From positions 124,001 to 188,000 of the forward strand of contig NZ_BMJM01000006.1 in assembly GCF_014643455.1 (NCBI RefSeq): a stretch of 64,000 nt of DNA. Direction: 5' to 3'. Shown here one piece after another: positions 4,930-35,039 of the stretch. Source of the stretch: Sandarakinorhabdus glacialis (lineage in GTDB: Bacteria; Pseudomonadota; Alphaproteobacteria; Sphingomonadales; Sphingomonadaceae). How positions within the stretch are numbered: position 1 is the first letter of the stretch; each line of letters begins with the position of its first letter. The translations under genes were made by a program, and so were the position numbers. The notes under the pieces are model-generated. The model saw only the letters and a list, made by a program, of their open reading frames with translations, ran no database searches and was not told the origin of the DNA.

Positions 4930-6339
4930 GTGCGCCTGGGGGACCTTGTGGACGGCGGAAGCGCCGAAACCGTGACCGGATTCGCACTCGATCACCGCAA
5001 GGTCGCCCCCGGCACGATCTTCGGCGCCTTCCGCGGCGCCCGCGTCAACGGCGAGGACTATATCCCGCAAGCCATCGCTAACGGCGCGATCGCAATCGTC
5101 ACCCGCGCCGGCGTCCCCGTGACGGGCGCGCAGGCGATCACCGCCGACGAACCCCGCGCCGTCTTCGCCCACCTCGCCGCCCGCTATTTCGCGCCGTTCC
5201 CATCGACCGTCGTCGCCATTACCGGCACCAACGGCAAGACTTCGACCGCGGAACTGACCCGGCAGCTCTGGCACCAGGCCGGCCACGTCGCCGCCAGCAT
5301 CGGCACGCTCGGCGTCACCACCGCCCACGATCAGGTCAGCACGGGCCTTACCACCCCCGACGTCGTCACCTTCCTCGCCAACATGGCCGGGCTGCAGCGC
5401 GAGGGCGTCACCCACGCCAGTTTCGAAGCCAGCAGCCACGGTCTCGACCAATTCCGCACCGAGGGCCTGCCCGTCGCCGCCGCCGCCTTCACCAACCTGT
5501 CCCGCGACCACCTCGATTACCACAGCACGATGGAGGCCTATTTCGCCGCCAAGCTGCGCCTGTTCACCGAAGTCGTCGACCCGGCCGGAACCGCGGTAAT
5601 CTGGGCCGACGACGAATGGTCGGACCTGGTCATCGCCGCCTGCCAGGAACGCCATCTCCGCACATATACCGTCGGCACCCGCGGCGAGGGTTTGAAACTC
5701 CTCTCGCGCACCCCCACCATGCTCGGCCAGACCCTGCGCCTGACCGCCGGCGGGTCCGAAATCACCGTGAATCTCCCGCTCATCGGCGCCTATCAAGCCG
5801 CCAACGCGCTTTTGGCGGCCGGCCTCGTCATCGCCGTCGGCGGCGACGTCGCCACCACGATTTCGAACCTGTCCCGCCTGCAACCCGTCCGCGGCCGCCT
5901 CGAACGCGCTGTAATCGCTCGCTCCGGCGCCGCCGTCTATGTCGACTACGCCCACACCCCCGACGCCCTCGAGGCCGCTGCCGCCGCCCTCCGCCCCCAC
6001 ACAAAGGGCCGCCTCATCCTGGTCTTCGGCGCCGGCGGCGACCGCGACCAGGGCAAGCGCCCCCTGATGGGCCAAGCCGCTGCAAACATTGCGGATTACG
6101 TCATCGTCACCGACGACAACCCGCGCTCCGAAGACCCCGCCACCATCCGCGCCGCCATCGCATCCCCCGGCGCCACCGAAATCGCCGACCGCCGCCAGGC
6201 CATCGCCGCCGCCATCGCCGCCAGCGGTCCCCAAGACATTGTTCTGATTGCCGGAAAGGGCCATGAACAAGGCCAGATCGTCGGCGACCAGGTCCTGCCT
6301 TTCGACGACGTCCAGGTCGCCCGCGAGTCCGCGCAATGA
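4930..6339 (+). CDS. murE: UDP-MurNAc-L-Ala-D-Glu:meso-DAP ligase MurE
   Basis: 469 aa from a GTG start. This start leaves only 4 bases after ftsI, whereas the open frame extends well back into ftsI. It adds the third stem-peptide residue in the cytoplasm. Motifs: ATP-binding ITGTNGKTSTAEL, VDYAHTPDALE, GAGGDRDQGKRPLMG and the DNPRSEDP loop. The DNPR signature indicates meso-diaminopimelate specificity rather than lysine, as expected for a Gram-negative organism. It overlaps murF by four bases (ATGA). Confidence 0.95.
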   Translation: MRLGDLVDGGSAETVTGFALDHRKVAPGTIFGAFRGARVNGEDYIPQAIANGAIAIVTRAGVPVTGAQAITADEPRAVFAHLAARYFAPFPSTVVAITGTNGKTSTAELTRQLWHQAGHVAASIGTLGVTTAHDQVSTGLTTPDVVTFLANMAGLQREGVTHASFEASSHGLDQFRTEGLPVAAAAFTNLSRDHLDYHSTMEAYFAAKLRLFTEVVDPAGTAVIWADDEWSDLVIAACQERHLRTYTVGTRGEGLKLLSRTPTMLGQTLRLTAGGSEITVNLPLIGAYQAANALLAAGLVIAVGGDVATTISNLSRLQPVRGRLERAVIARSGAAVYVDYAHTPDALEAAAAALRPHTKGRLILVFGAGGDRDQGKRPLMGQAAANIADYVIVTDDNPRSEDPATIRAAIASPGATEIADRRQAIAAAIAASGPQDIVLIAGKGHEQGQIVGDQVLPFDDVQVARESAQ

Positions 6340-30266: not shown

Positions 30267-31510
30267 CGATTGCCGGGCATCCGGACGCGAGTGCACAAGC
30301 CGAGCAGGGGGCGTTTCGCCCCCTGCTCGGTTCGATGCTGCTCGGCGGCTTCGAATGTTCGGCGCATAAACTGCGCAGCGGTCGCCGGCTCGATCTCATC
30401 GCCTCCACCGGCCACGACCTGCGCGCCGCCGACGATTATGCGCTTCTGCAACATCACGGCATGGCCGGCGGCCGCGATGGCCTGCGCTGGCACCGCATCG
30501 AGCAACGCCCCGGCCGCTACGACTGGTCGAGCTTCCTGCCGATGCTCCACGCCGCGCGCGACAGCGGCTTCACCGTGGCTTGGGATCTTCTTCACTACGG
30601 CCTGCCCAACGGCCTCGACGTCTTCTCGCCGGCGTTCATCACGCGCTTTGCCGCCTTCGCCCGCGTCGCCGCCGTGCTGGTCCGCGCCGAAACCGACGAA
30701 CCCCCGACCTGGACGCCGATCAACGAAATCAGCTTCTGGGCGTTTGCCGGCGGCGAAAAAGGCGGCCTCAACCCCTTCGCCCGCAATCGTGGCCCCGCCC
30801 TCAAAAAACAGCTCGCCCGCGCCGCGCTGGCCGCCATCGACGCCGTGCGCAGCGTCGATCCCCGCGCGCGAATCGCCGTCGCCGAACCCCTCATCCACAT
30901 CTTCCCCGCCGACGATACGCCCCGGTCGGCGGAGCTGGTCCGCATCCACAACGCCAGCCAGTTCGAGGCGCTCGACATGCTGCTCGGCCGGCGGGCGCCC
31001 GAACTCGGCGGCTTCGCCGGCGCCGTCGATATCATCGGGCTCAACTATTACAACAACAACCAATGGGTCGATCACGGCCGCCCGGTCCACCTCGGCGACC
31101 ATCTCTACCTCCCGCTACGCACCCTCCTTGCCGGCGTCGCCGCCCGCTACGACCAACCGCTCTACATCGCCGAAACCGGCACCGAGGGCATCTTCCGGCC
31201 CTATTGGTTGCGCTATGTCTGCGACGAAGTCCGCGCCGCCATCGCCGCCGTCGCCAATATCGGCGGCATCTGCCTTTACCCCATCGTCAGCCACCTCGGC
31301 TGGGACGACGACCGCCATTGCCACAACGGCCTGTTCGAAGGCCATGGCCCCGATTGCGCCCGCAGCGTCGACGCCGCCCTTGCCGCCGAACTCGCGCTCC
31401 AGGTCGCCGCCTTCGGCGGTGTCCAGCCGGCCGCCGCCCCGGCGCACATTCCCCTGTCGCCGCGCGCGCCCTGGCCCCGTTACGCACCCGCGCTGACCTT
31501 GTCGGCATGA
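30263..31510 (+). CDS. Glycoside hydrolase family 1-like protein
   Basis: 415 aa from the ATG overlapping the glf stop. A second start at ATG 30335 would give MLLGGFECSAHKLR and would leave a strong hairpin outside the gene. GH1-type catalytic positions are visible: the acid/base Glu in TPINEISFWA and the nucleophile Glu in YIAETGTEG. It is shorter than classical beta-glucosidases (about 450 aa). No signal peptide is seen, so it probably acts in the cytoplasm. Within a biosynthetic locus, it could be a trimming or transglycosylating enzyme rather than a catabolic one. Confidence 0.8.
   Translation: MTIAGHPDASAQAEQGAFRPLLGSMLLGGFECSAHKLRSGRRLDLIASTGHDLRAADDYALLQHHGMAGGRDGLRWHRIEQRPGRYDWSSFLPMLHAARDSGFTVAWDLLHYGLPNGLDVFSPAFITRFAAFARVAAVLVRAETDEPPTWTPINEISFWAFAGGEKGGLNPFARNRGPALKKQLARAALAAIDAVRSVDPRARIAVAEPLIHIFPADDTPRSAELVRIHNASQFEALDMLLGRRAPELGGFAGAVDIIGLNYYNNNQWVDHGRPVHLGDHLYLPLRTLLAGVAARYDQPLYIAETGTEGIFRPYWLRYVCDEVRAAIAAVANIGGICLYPIVSHLGWDDDRHCHNGLFEGHGPDCARSVDAALAAELALQVAAFGGVQPAAAPAHIPLSPRAPWPRYAPALTLSA
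30300..30330. other. Perfect 13-bp stem-loop at the glf/GH1 junction
   Basis: CCGAGCAGGGGGC (30300-30312) and its exact complement (30318-30330) are separated by GTTTC. Downstream there are only two T residues, so a standard terminator is doubtful. It lies inside the GH1-like frame if that gene starts at 30263, or just before it if the start is 30335. It could reduce expression downstream of glf. Confidence 0.6.
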
Positions 31511-32610
31511 CCGGTCCGGTCTTCGCCGTCGCCATCCCCGCGCACGACGAGGCCGAGCGCATCGCCGCCTGCATCGCCGCTCTCGCCGCCCAGCCGCGCG
31601 CCGCCGACCGCATCGCCGGGGTGATCGTCTATGCCAACAACTGCCGCGACGACACCGCCGCCATCGCCCGCGCCTGCCCGGCGCCATTTCCGCTGATCGT
31701 CGTCGAAGCCGAGCACCCCCCCGAACGCGCCCATATCGGCTGGGCCCGGCGCGGCGCCACCGATGCCGCCATCGCCCGCCTGACCGAAATCGGCCGCCCC
31801 GATGGCATCGTCGCCGGTACCGACGCCGACTCGCGCGTCGCTACCGGCTGGCTTGCCGCAATGCACGCCGCCTTCGCGGCCGGCGCCGACGCCGTCGCCG
31901 GCGCCATCGACATCGATCCCGACGATGACGCCTCGCTCGGAGGCGTCGCCCGCCGCCGCGACGAGGCCGCCTATGCCAACGCCGTCGCCCGCGTCGCCGC
32001 CCACCTCGATCCGCTCCCCCATGATCCCTACCCCAACCATATCTGGGCATGGGGCGCCAATCTGGCCGTCCGCGCCCCAGTCCTCGCTGCCGTCGGCGGC
32101 ATACCCCTCGTCGATCTCGCCGAGGACCACGCCCTCCACCGTGCCTTGCTCCACCACGATGCCCGCATCCGTCACACTCTCGATGCCCGCGTCTGGACGT
32201 CGGGCCGCAGCGACGGTCGCGCCCCCGGCGGCTTTGCCGACCTGCTGACCAGCTACGCCGTCGAACCCGGCGCCCTCGCCGATTTCGAGCTCGAACCCGC
32301 CGCCATCGCCTGGCGCCGCGCCCGCCTCCGCGGCACCGCCCGCCGACTATGGCAGGGCGGTGAACTCGCGCCCCTTGCCGCCCGCCTCGGTGCCGAAGCC
32401 GCCACCACCTTCGGCGCCGCCTGGGATTCCTTCTGCGAAACCTGCACCTTGCTGCAAAAATCGCGTGTCCCGGTAACCGCGCTCGCCGCCCAGACTAGCC
32501 TGCTGAACAGCCGCCTTACCGCAATCAAACCCGCCGCAGGCGATCGATCCGATACTGCGGCGTCGCTGCATGAAATTCCGGTTCGGCAATTCCATTCAGC
32601 GCAGCCATGA
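31507..32610 (+). CDS. Glycosyltransferase family 2 protein
   Basis: 367 aa from the ATG overlapping the GH1-like stop; the open frame further left is a shadow. GT-A signatures: FAVAIPAHDEAERIAACIAAL at the N terminus, YANNCRDDT, the metal-binding DxD in GTDADSRV, and LAEDHALHRALL. It is probably cytoplasmic and uses a nucleotide sugar. Its last 86 bases overlap the 3' end of the methyltransferase gene on the opposite strand, an unusual convergent overlap. It is adjacent to the methyltransferase, acyl-CoA dehydrogenase and PIG-L genes. Confidence 0.85.
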   Translation: MTGPVFAVAIPAHDEAERIAACIAALAAQPRAADRIAGVIVYANNCRDDTAAIARACPAPFPLIVVEAEHPPERAHIGWARRGATDAAIARLTEIGRPDGIVAGTDADSRVATGWLAAMHAAFAAGADAVAGAIDIDPDDDASLGGVARRRDEAAYANAVARVAAHLDPLPHDPYPNHIWAWGANLAVRAPVLAAVGGIPLVDLAEDHALHRALLHHDARIRHTLDARVWTSGRSDGRAPGGFADLLTSYAVEPGALADFELEPAAIAWRRARLRGTARRLWQGGELAPLAARLGAEAATTFGAAWDSFCETCTLLQKSRVPVTALAAQTSLLNSRLTAIKPAAGDRSDTAASLHEIPVRQFHSAQP

Positions 32611-33112
32611 AGCCTTCCGCCGCCTCGTTGCCATTGAGCGGATAATCCGGCGTCTCGCCCAGCCAATGCACCAGCACGATATCCGCGCCCGGCCGCGCCA
32701 TCCCGACCGTGACGGCCGCCGCCTGCTCCAGCGTCGGCGCATCGAGATAATACAGCACTTCGGAAAACACCATCAGGTCGAAATCGCCCCTCAAACCGTC
32801 GCCCGACACCTCGCAGGGAAACTGCCGCAGTTCGAACCGCACCTGCGGCTGGTCGGCATTCAGCGCCCGCGCTTCGTCCAGCGCCGCCGCCGCCACATCG
32901 GTCGCCAGCAAGTCGTCGCACCGCGCCGCCAGCATCCGCGTCAACATCCCGATCGAGCAGCCGATCTCCAGCCCGGCCGCATACCGGCCCCGGGGTATCG
33001 CATCCAGGGTCGCTGCATATTTTGCCGCTTCATATTCGCTGCCGCGAAACTTCCACGGGTCGATGTCCTGCTTATACAAATCGTCGAAGTAGGCCGGCGG
33101 CAGGCTGTCCAT
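32525..33112 (-). CDS. NodS-like SAM-dependent methyltransferase
   Basis: 195 aa. The N terminus (SLPPAYFDDLYKQDIDPWKF, then SEYEAAKYAATL) and the SAM-binding loop LEIGCSIGMLTRMLA match the NodS group. In rhizobia, NodS N-methylates the deacetylated glucosamine of Nod factor precursors. FSEVLYYLD is the post-II motif. It is translationally coupled (TGATG) behind the acyl-CoA dehydrogenase gene. Its last 86 bases run antisense to the end of the GT2 gene. The actual acceptor here is unknown; an amino sugar is suggested by the PIG-L deacetylase nearby. Confidence 0.85.
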   Translation of the reverse strand: MDSLPPAYFDDLYKQDIDPWKFRGSEYEAAKYAATLDAIPRGRYAAGLEIGCSIGMLTRMLAARCDDLLATDVAAAALDEARALNADQPQVRFELRQFPCEVSGDGLRGDFDLMVFSEVLYYLDAPTLEQAAAVTVGMARPGADIVLVHWLGETPDYPLNGNEAAEGFMAALNGIAEPEFHAATPQYRIDRLRRV

Positions 33113-34296
33113 CAATAATCTCCTATGTCGGTATGCATGTCGCCACCCGCAGCCATCGACCACCCCGACGCCGCATCGAGCGCCGCATCCGGAAACGGCT
33201 GCCGCAGGTACGTCGACAGGTCGCGCACGATCCGCTCCACCGGCGACGGCCGCAGCATCGCCGACAGGCCGATGCCCCGCTGCACCCGCTCGATCACCTC
33301 CAGCGCCGCGCGCTCGAATCCATGCCGCGCCAGATTGACGAACGCATCGACCGCGGCCGCATCGCGCGCCGGGTCCTCGGCGATCGCTGCCGCCCGCGCC
33401 GTCCACAACCGCGCCGCCTCGCAGCGCGCCAGCGCCTCGCCGAATCGCGCCCGCTGCACCGGGTCGCCGCTCCGCCCGCGAACATTCATCGCCTCGCGGT
33501 GCAGCCCGACCAGCCGCTCGACGGCACCCAACTGCACCGCCAGCACCCGCCACGCACCACCGGCAAACAACGGCGTCCGGTAATAATCGCCCGGTGCCCC
33601 GACGATCTCGCTCGCCGCCACCACGATCCCGGTCATCTCGGTGCCGCCCGTCGCCGACGCCGCGATCCCCGTCGGCAACCATTCCGACAAATCGCCCACC
33701 GCGCCGCTGATGTCGGGAATCGCCATCACCATGCCCGCGGGCGTCATCGCCGTTACCAGCGGCCGCCGCACCATCCCGGTCCCCGACGTGTAGCGTTTCG
33801 CCCCGACCAGCCGGCCGCCGGTCAGCACCAGTCCCGGTGGACTCTCGGCATTCCACACCGCCGAGATCCGCCCGGCGTTGCACTCGGCCGCGAGCAGCGC
33901 CATCTGCGCCGCAGCGCCGCATCGCCGCATCGCCGCATCGCCGCATCGCCGCATCGCCGCATCGCCGCATCGCCGCATCGCCGCATCGCCGTATCGCGCC
34001 GTCAGCCGCACCGCATTGACATGCCCCTCGTACAGCCGCCCCAGCGGCAGCGACGCCCCGCCGATGATCCGCAGCACATCGCGCAGCACCGGCGCCGTCG
34101 CCGCGTTCAGCCCCGTCGCGGCACCGCCCAGCCGCAGCGGCAGCGGCGCGTGCAGCAATCCGTACCGGTGCAACGCGGCGACCTCGGTGTTCGGCAGGCT
34201 GGCATCGTGATCGCGCCGCGCCGCCAGCCGGTCGGCAACACGCGCCGCCCGCCGCGCCGCTGCGGGAACCAGATGCGGAACGGGCAGGTTGCGCAT
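33112..34296 (-). CDS. Acyl-CoA dehydrogenase family protein with coding octanucleotide repeat
   Basis: 394 aa from ATG 34296; a TTG three codons upstream is also open. The acyl-CoA dehydrogenase layout is recognisable: helical N-terminal domain, middle segment around KRYTSGTGMVRRPLV, and helical C-terminal domain with VQRGIGLSAMLRPSPVERIVRDLSTYLRQ. Residues about 101-128 are a repeated GDAAMRRC unit encoded by an 8-bp tandem repeat, so gain or loss of one unit would shift the frame. Its ATG lies 2 bp from the divergent PIG-L ATG. It could desaturate or oxidise an acyl chain on a carrier or a glycolipid precursor; the substrate is unknown. Confidence 0.85.
   Translation of the reverse strand: MRNLPVPHLVPAAARRAARVADRLAARRDHDASLPNTEVAALHRYGLLHAPLPLRLGGAATGLNAATAPVLRDVLRIIGGASLPLGRLYEGHVNAVRLTARYGDAAMRRCGDAAMRRCGDAAMRRCGAAAQMALLAAECNAGRISAVWNAESPPGLVLTGGRLVGAKRYTSGTGMVRRPLVTAMTPAGMVMAIPDISGAVGDLSEWLPTGIAASATGGTEMTGIVVAASEIVGAPGDYYRTPLFAGGAWRVLAVQLGAVERLVGLHREAMNVRGRSGDPVQRARFGEALARCEAARLWTARAAAIAEDPARDAAAVDAFVNLARHGFERAALEVIERVQRGIGLSAMLRPSPVERIVRDLSTYLRQPFPDAALDAASGWSMAAGGDMHTDIGDY
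33915..33994 (-). repeat. Octanucleotide tandem repeat inside the acyl-CoA dehydrogenase gene
   Basis: Nine perfect copies of CGCCGCAT (33915-33986) are followed by one variant copy, CGCCGTAT (33987-33994). The unit is 8 bp, so each single-unit change alters the reading frame, while a change of three keeps it. The frame is open in this sequence. Short tandem repeats like this within coding regions are typical substrates for slipped-strand mispairing and phase variation. Confidence 0.93.
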
Positions 34297-34298
34297 CC

Positions 34299-35039
34299 AT
34301 GACAAACTCGCCAGCCGCGCCGCTGTTCCAACCCCGCAACAGTCCGTCGCCGCATGCAGAAACGCTGTCCCGCTGGCACGCCGCCGCCGCGCCCGTCACC
34401 ATCGACGCACTACTCGGCAACGCTCGCTCGCTGGGTGTCGTGGTGCCCCATGCCGATGATGAAACCCTTGGTTGTGGCGGGCTGATCGCCGCCGCCGCCG
34501 ATCGCGGCCTCGCCGTCCATGTCACGGTCCTGACCGACGGCGCCGCTTCGCACCCCGGCTCGGTGCAATGGCCGCCGGCCCGCCTCCGTGCGCACCGCCG
34601 CACCGAAGCGGCCGCCGTCGCCATCCTGACGCGCGGCCGCGGCACCATGGGTTTCGCCGACGCCCCGGACGGCGCGCTCGCCGACTATCCCGAAACCGCC
34701 GACAAGATCCTTGGTGCCGACCTGCTGGTGACCCGCTGGCAGGGCGATCCACACCCCGACCACCAGGCCGCCTTTCGCATCGCGCGCGCCGCCGCCGAGC
34801 GCCTCGGCGCCCAGCTCATCGCCTTTCCCTTATGGGTTCTCACCACCGTTGACGGTCCGCCGGCCCATCGACTTGTAGCTTGCGACGTCGATGCCGCGCT
34901 GGCGCTCAAGCGCGCTGCGCTTGCTGCTCATCGCAGTCAGCTCGGAAACCTCGTCGAGGATTGTCGCGGCTTCGTCCTCGACGACGAGCTTCAGGCGCTG
35001 TTCGTCCGCGCCGAAGAGCTTTATCTGGTCATTCGCTGA
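34299..35039 (+). CDS. PIG-L/LmbE family N-deacetylase
   Basis: 246 aa. The zinc-binding motif PHADDETLGCGG (usual form PHPDDE, here with Ala for Pro) and the distal HPDH in QGDPHPDHQAAF are both present. Family members remove N-acetyl groups from GlcNAc-containing glycolipids or pseudodisaccharides (PIG-L, MshB). The start is divergent from the acyl-CoA dehydrogenase, with only 2 bp between the two ATG codons. The last 210 bases overlap the galE 3' end antisense. The C-terminal segment AALAAHRSQLGN is typical for the family, so this frame is the real one in the overlap. Confidence 0.9.
   Translation: MTNSPAAPLFQPRNSPSPHAETLSRWHAAAAPVTIDALLGNARSLGVVVPHADDETLGCGGLIAAAADRGLAVHVTVLTDGAASHPGSVQWPPARLRAHRRTEAAAVAILTRGRGTMGFADAPDGALADYPETADKILGADLLVTRWQGDPHPDHQAAFRIARAAAERLGAQLIAFPLWVLTTVDGPPAHRLVACDVDAALALKRAALAAHRSQLGNLVEDCRGFVLDDELQALFVRAEELYLVIR

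Follow-up and report, generated by a model that had tools for sequence, protein, structure and literature searches.

Does the octanucleotide tract inside a predicted flavoenzyme gene of Sandarakinorhabdus glacialis act as an evolved switch, in which slippage turns the gene on and off, or is it an incidental expansion that places a reading frame at risk? We examined the tract, the gene that holds it, the genes around it and its counterparts in relatives. In what follows, the window is the whole 64-kb stretch of DNA that was analysed, and positions refer to it.

Anatomy and rarity of the octamer array

33112..34296, minus strand: gene holding the array, predicted to encode an acyl-CoA-dehydrogenase-fold (ACAD-fold) flavoenzyme; ATG at 34296, stop at 33112, 394 aa (Pfam, NCBIfam, PDB profile search, AlphaFold2)
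33907..33997, no strand assigned: octanucleotide tandem array, period 8, 11.4 copies, consisting of CGCCGCAG, nine CGCCGCAT, CGCCGTAT and CGC
33915..33986, no strand assigned: nine perfect contiguous units CGCCGCAT, 72 bp, equal to the 24-residue excess over homologues

On the plus strand, the nine-unit block is preceded by CGCCGCAG (33907-33914) and followed by CGCCGTAT (33987-33994) and a partial CGC that ends at 33997. The earlier note had described nine perfect units and one variant reaching 33994, located in an acyl-CoA dehydrogenase gene and encoding GDAAMRRC repeats. The units are exactly as described, they lie in that reading frame (34296-33112, minus strand) and encode those repeats, and the array extends further on both sides, to 33907 and 33997. 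The locus thus shares with simple-sequence-repeat (SSR) mediated phase-variable loci a pure tandem tract, with a unit not divisible by three, in coding sequence.

The longest self-match at a shift of 8 in the 64-kb window measured 69 bases, while in 100 order-2 Markov simulations of equal length the longest match averaged 9.1 bases and never exceeded 15. Three exact CGCCGCAT units in tandem occur at a single site of the 3,317,434-base genome (7 overlapping hits, all in this array). The same exact pattern, which is blind to tracts of a different unit, was absent from the 23 other genus genomes (1/24, this genome) and from the other 396 genomes of the family sample (1/397, again this genome). 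Our survey of arrays covered 864 kb, or 26% of the genome, made up of 800 kb of sampled stretches and the window. Within it, the tract at 33907-33997 was the only array of unit 8 with at least three perfect copies, and perfect arrays with units of 4-11 bases not divisible by three reached at most 5 copies elsewhere. In 400 kb of the congener Polymorphobacter multimanifer (G004), no unit of 7-20 bases had three perfect copies.

The host flavoenzyme and its gene neighbourhood

Based on profile matches, the gene product is an ACAD-fold flavoenzyme. Pfam models PF00441 and PF08028 match its C-terminal part just above their cut-offs, and the NCBIfam models for SfnB and DszC match far below theirs. 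A profile of the flavoenzyme family searched against the PDB recovered DszC, TdsC, methanesulfinate monooxygenase and ACAD chains (3x0x, 4doy, 4jek, 5xb8, 6u76), with a best E of 6e-21. By profile score the enzyme is nearer the DszC-type monooxygenases, and it may be a monooxygenase and not a dehydrogenase. The window enzyme shares its family profile with DszC/TdsC/SfnB-type flavin oxidoreductases and acyl-CoA dehydrogenases, but the relationship is remote, and the 24-residue insert is absent from all homologues measured. Since a match was found in only 7 of the 24 genus genomes, this one included, the gene is accessory in the genus.

The AlphaFold2 model of the flavoenzyme has a mean pLDDT of 87.1. 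In it the insert occupies about residues 103-126 and is placed, at low confidence, after helix 83-102 and before helix 126-140. The ten-residue blocks there score 66, 50 and 61. Among the other 37 such blocks, 29 are at 85 or above, and the lower ones are the first block, 201-220, 341-350 and 361 onward. Because no other alignment row covers the insert, low pLDDT is expected at this place and is no proof of tolerance; the turn probably tolerates the insert.

The flavoenzyme gene belongs to a cassette of four genes, the other members of which are:

32525..33112, minus strand: NodS-like SAM methyltransferase, 195 aa; its start overlaps the flavoenzyme stop (TGATG)
34299..35039, plus strand: PIG-L family deacetylase, 246 aa; divergent from the flavoenzyme gene
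31507..32610, plus strand: GT2 glycosyltransferase, 367 aa from the ATG chosen here; fourth cassette member

The GT2 and methyltransferase genes of the window run towards each other, their ends overlapping by 86 bp; further neighbours include genes for a UDP-galactopyranose mutase and an epimerase. This neighbourhood suggests a glycan or glycolipid product. We compared 32 loci from named genomes, chiefly Alphaproteobacteria: all three partners of the flavoenzyme were present within the fetched flanks in 20, two partners in 3 and none in 9, six of these nine being Methylobacterium loci with long flanks. P. multimanifer carries the cassette in the same order and orientation as the window. No paper on this combination of flavoenzyme, PIG-L, NodS-like methyltransferase and GT2 genes was found among openly licensed full texts.

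Translational coupling of the methyltransferase, as the earlier note proposed, agrees with the TGATG overlap; however, the methyltransferase has its own AGGAG seven bases ahead of its ATG, so its dependence on coupling need not be total. At the other end of the flavoenzyme gene, its start codon (minus strand) and that of the PIG-L gene (plus strand) are divergent and 2 bp apart at 34294-34301, reading CATCCATG in the window and CATCGATG in P. multimanifer. GTTCAT stands shortly ahead of the ATG in the five other genus members carrying the flavoenzyme gene. Given this spacing, the promoters of both genes would have to sit inside the opposite gene; a promoter scan around the divergent starts found none, and none was expected from shuffles.

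Origin of the tract and predicted outcomes of slippage

Spacing between conserved motifs revealed where the window protein is longer than its relatives. From GRLYEGH to VWN the window has 61 residues, compared with 37 in 40 of 66 rows, 35 in three and 29 in one; the two rows at 61 are both the window's own gene, 20 rows were unmatched by the pattern, and the set holds two duplicate row pairs. With a looser pattern and duplicates removed, the distance from the HVNA-type to the VW-type motif could be measured in 59 of 62 homologues. It was 26 residues in 48 of them and 18-24 in the remaining 11 (for some of which the pattern ended early), and none of the 59 exceeded 26, against 50 in the window. 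A 25-row alignment has a gap over the insert in all 24 other rows. The excess of the window protein is 24 residues, or 72 bp, which is exactly nine units.

None of the 59 measured homologues has a tandem tract at the site, so recurrence in relatives, which is expected of SSR-mediated phase-variable loci though not strictly defining, was not observed. A Tandem Repeats Finder (TRF) search at a score of at least 80 over the fetched homologue loci yielded no other frame-breaking array and two arrays with units that are multiples of three, of 21 bp (L010) and 15 bp (L070). The latter is the own array of the homologue in Sphingomonas sp. CFBP 8760 (L070 4295-4374, 15 bp x 5.3) and lies shortly after the VWNTE motif. 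According to the earlier note, homologues encoding the same residues with non-repetitive codons would count against a switch; this condition does not apply, as the measured homologues are without those residues.

Within the tract, a DNA period of 8 is nested in a peptide period of 24 bp, and the codons of the peptide repeats are identical. These periods make the array most likely a product of DNA-level slippage and not of selection on the peptide. A-R-Y-G is encoded by the imperfect units on the flanks, and these resemble the original seed. That all nine units are identical and that only one of the 24 genus genomes has them suggests a recent expansion, and because no measured homologue is longer and the excess is exactly nine units, we infer that in this lineage roughly two starting units were extended by nine more. 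The proposed course is as follows. By chance, the codons for A-R-Y-G-D-A-A, which lie in a helix-helix turn of the flavoenzyme, would have come to contain a seed of ~2.4 octamer units, and this seed would have grown by nine units through slipped-strand mispairing. As nine units make 72 bp, the frame would have been kept and the protein would have gained a 24-residue (GDAAMRRC)3 insert in the turn, where it was probably tolerated. With further slippage the tract would be a hotspot for frameshifts, from which full-length, truncated or run-on proteins could result.

We translated the gene in silico with different numbers of perfect units. With 0, 3, 6, 9, 12 or 15 units the flavoenzyme frame is kept, and the product ranges from 370 to 410 aa. 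One unit more (n=10) gives a truncated product of 160 aa, ending at the following stop:

33822..33824, minus strand: TGA met in the frame with one added unit, ending the 160-aa product (translation)

One unit fewer (n=8) meets no stop in the flavoenzyme gene; translation then enters the methyltransferase, which it reads in that gene's own frame up to 32525, giving 587 aa. A change in unit number is therefore predicted to alter the frame, as in SSR-mediated phase-variable loci, and the potential of the tract for frame switching is genuine. The earlier note's expectation that a slip by one unit switches the protein off holds, as both changes leave the frame, but the directions are unequal: a gain truncates at 33822 and a loss runs on. 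The sequenced copy, with nine units, is in frame; this state has a one-in-three chance and alone does not discriminate between readings.

The alternative frames could be counted in 58 of 62 homologues. The run-on frame passes the end of the gene in 10 of the 58 (in two of these by 5 bases only), and the other shifted frame does so in none. A designed run-on into the methyltransferase was rejected, as an open frame found in 10 of 58 homologues is not rare in these GC-rich relatives.

This genome contains a second array, longer than the octamer tract, with a 12-bp unit in 15.3 copies (98% matches; L120 14391-14574, G000:C4:94391-94574), which encodes GAGL repeats near the C-terminus of a 241-aa open reading frame (ORF). 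The adjoining ORF is presumably malate-synthase-like, judged from its translation. Three exact 12-bp units were absent from the 23 other genus genomes. Since an array with a unit that is a multiple of three cannot switch the frame, lineage-specific array growth occurs here without a switching benefit. Elsewhere in the genome, a 77-bp unit in 3.3 copies (97%; L098 4787-5043, G000:C6:44787-45043) overlaps the 3' part of a tRNA-Gly(CCC) gene (5018-5091, minus strand), as if the end of the tRNA gene had been duplicated downstream.

Two causes of instability were considered and rejected. A search for MutS gave a MutS-family match in an 886-aa open frame, which argues against a lack of mismatch repair. 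Hairpin-driven instability is disfavoured by single-strand folding: for the four array strands tested, shuffled sequences fold equally well or better in 200, 197, 200 and 165 of 200 cases.

Switch or incidental expansion

We consider it somewhat probable that the tract is a recent, lineage-specific and incidental expansion by DNA slippage, which has created a frameshift hotspot. We do not think that it is an evolved switch, and any switching would be a by-product. Against the incidental reading, the array stands out in 864 kb, and the gene around it is an accessory member of a glycan-type locus, a setting in which contingency loci are common. Ongoing switching could also be what keeps a tract free of interruptions.

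The strongest alternative, which we nevertheless regard as unlikely, is a true phase-variation (contingency) locus in which octamer slippage reversibly switches the flavoenzyme and the coupled methyltransferase and so varies a surface glycan or lipid. The unit length, the predicted frame outcomes and the nine pure units, compared with at most 5 copies in other perfect frame-breaking arrays (units of 4-11 bases) of the 864 kb surveyed, are all in its favour, as is the position of the gene among PIG-L, NodS-like methyltransferase, GT2, UDP-galactopyranose mutase and epimerase genes. A precedent exists in Haemophilus influenzae, for which excerpts of PMC2651432 report octamer tracts with 12-15 copies ahead of hmw genes. 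What weighs against the contingency locus proposed by the earlier note is that the tract is confined to one species and missing from the 59 measured homologues although the cassette is widespread, and that array growth in this lineage is not confined to places where it can switch a frame. The run-on frame is also open past the gene end in some homologues, and a MutS-family gene is present, albeit eight-base loops are not the usual MutS substrate.

Comparison with known tracts in H. influenzae, as they appear in excerpts of PMC2651432, shows both likeness and difference. A homologue of HI1369 has an intragenic heptamer tract, whose unit count is 13 in one strain but 8 in a second. As in the window, a tandem tract with a unit not a multiple of three lies in coding sequence, and ON and OFF states are predicted by unit count. 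In contrast to that tract, ours is a GC-rich octamer in an enzyme of a biosynthetic cassette of a sphingomonad relative, and is known from one sequenced copy, whereas the H. influenzae tract differs in unit number between strains; moreover, one direction of slippage here leads to a run-on with the next gene instead of a stop. Octanucleotide tracts of ATTATTTG and GCATCATC, in 1-6 and 12-15 copies, share the unit of eight and a comparable copy number with the window tract, but are located upstream of genes while ours is coding (same excerpts). Part of a 2015 paper (PMC4692102) describes reports of 6-9 nt repeats as rare. Among the matches listed in the openly licensed literature, from titles and abstract starts, there was no sphingomonad case of repeat-driven phase variation, and searches of that literature for Sphingomonas phase variation by slipped-strand mispairing and for Methylobacterium phase variation by tandem-repeat frameshift found no paper. 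By its sequence, the tract is a new candidate case of the known SSR frame-switching tracts.

A more elaborate form of switching strikes us as decidedly improbable. Here the number of units modulo three would set three states: a full-length enzyme with coupled methyltransferase, a truncated enzyme beside an uncoupled methyltransferase, or one run-on polypeptide with the methyltransferase at its end. The glycan or lipid made by the cassette would then vary from cell to cell.

We give very little credence to the possibility that the 24-residue (GDAAMRRC)3 insert was itself selected, with its cysteines and arginines having a role in the protein such as an interaction or a metal site. The insert is in frame, and the model suggests that the turn holding it could accommodate one; against this, identical codons with a DNA period of 8 inside each 24-bp peptide period make protein-level selection for the repeat unlikely, model confidence is low there, and the measured homologues have no insert.

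It is similarly hard to credit that this lineage can do without the enzyme and that the gene is drifting, with the array as a first sign of decay. The accessory status of the gene fits this explanation, and at near-invariant columns (those conserved to at least 95% among the other rows) the protein departs at M211I, R212A and D220E, the first two side by side. However, the ORF is full-length, 36 of the 39 near-invariant columns are kept, and 6 other rows of 25 likewise depart at three or four such columns, which places the window enzyme within the range of its family. In comparison with P. multimanifer over 345 codons, codon positions 1, 2 and 3 differ by 0.28, 0.19 and 0.47, the third position differing most. 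As far as the sequence tells, the enzyme is intact.

An assembly or sequencing error in the unit number is the faintest prospect: the genome is a draft in 40 contigs and repeat counts are a frequent assembly error, but a 91-bp array is short enough for one short read, the sequenced count is in frame, and the array as such is hardly an artefact.

If the tract does switch, a GC-rich sphingomonad relative, and with it a cassette found at 20 of 32 loci, would join the known cases of repeat-driven phase variation. If it does not, the incidental expansion that we favour would be a clean example of the birth of a frameshift-capable microsatellite, with a seed, growth by nine units, a possibly tolerant turn and a preserved frame.
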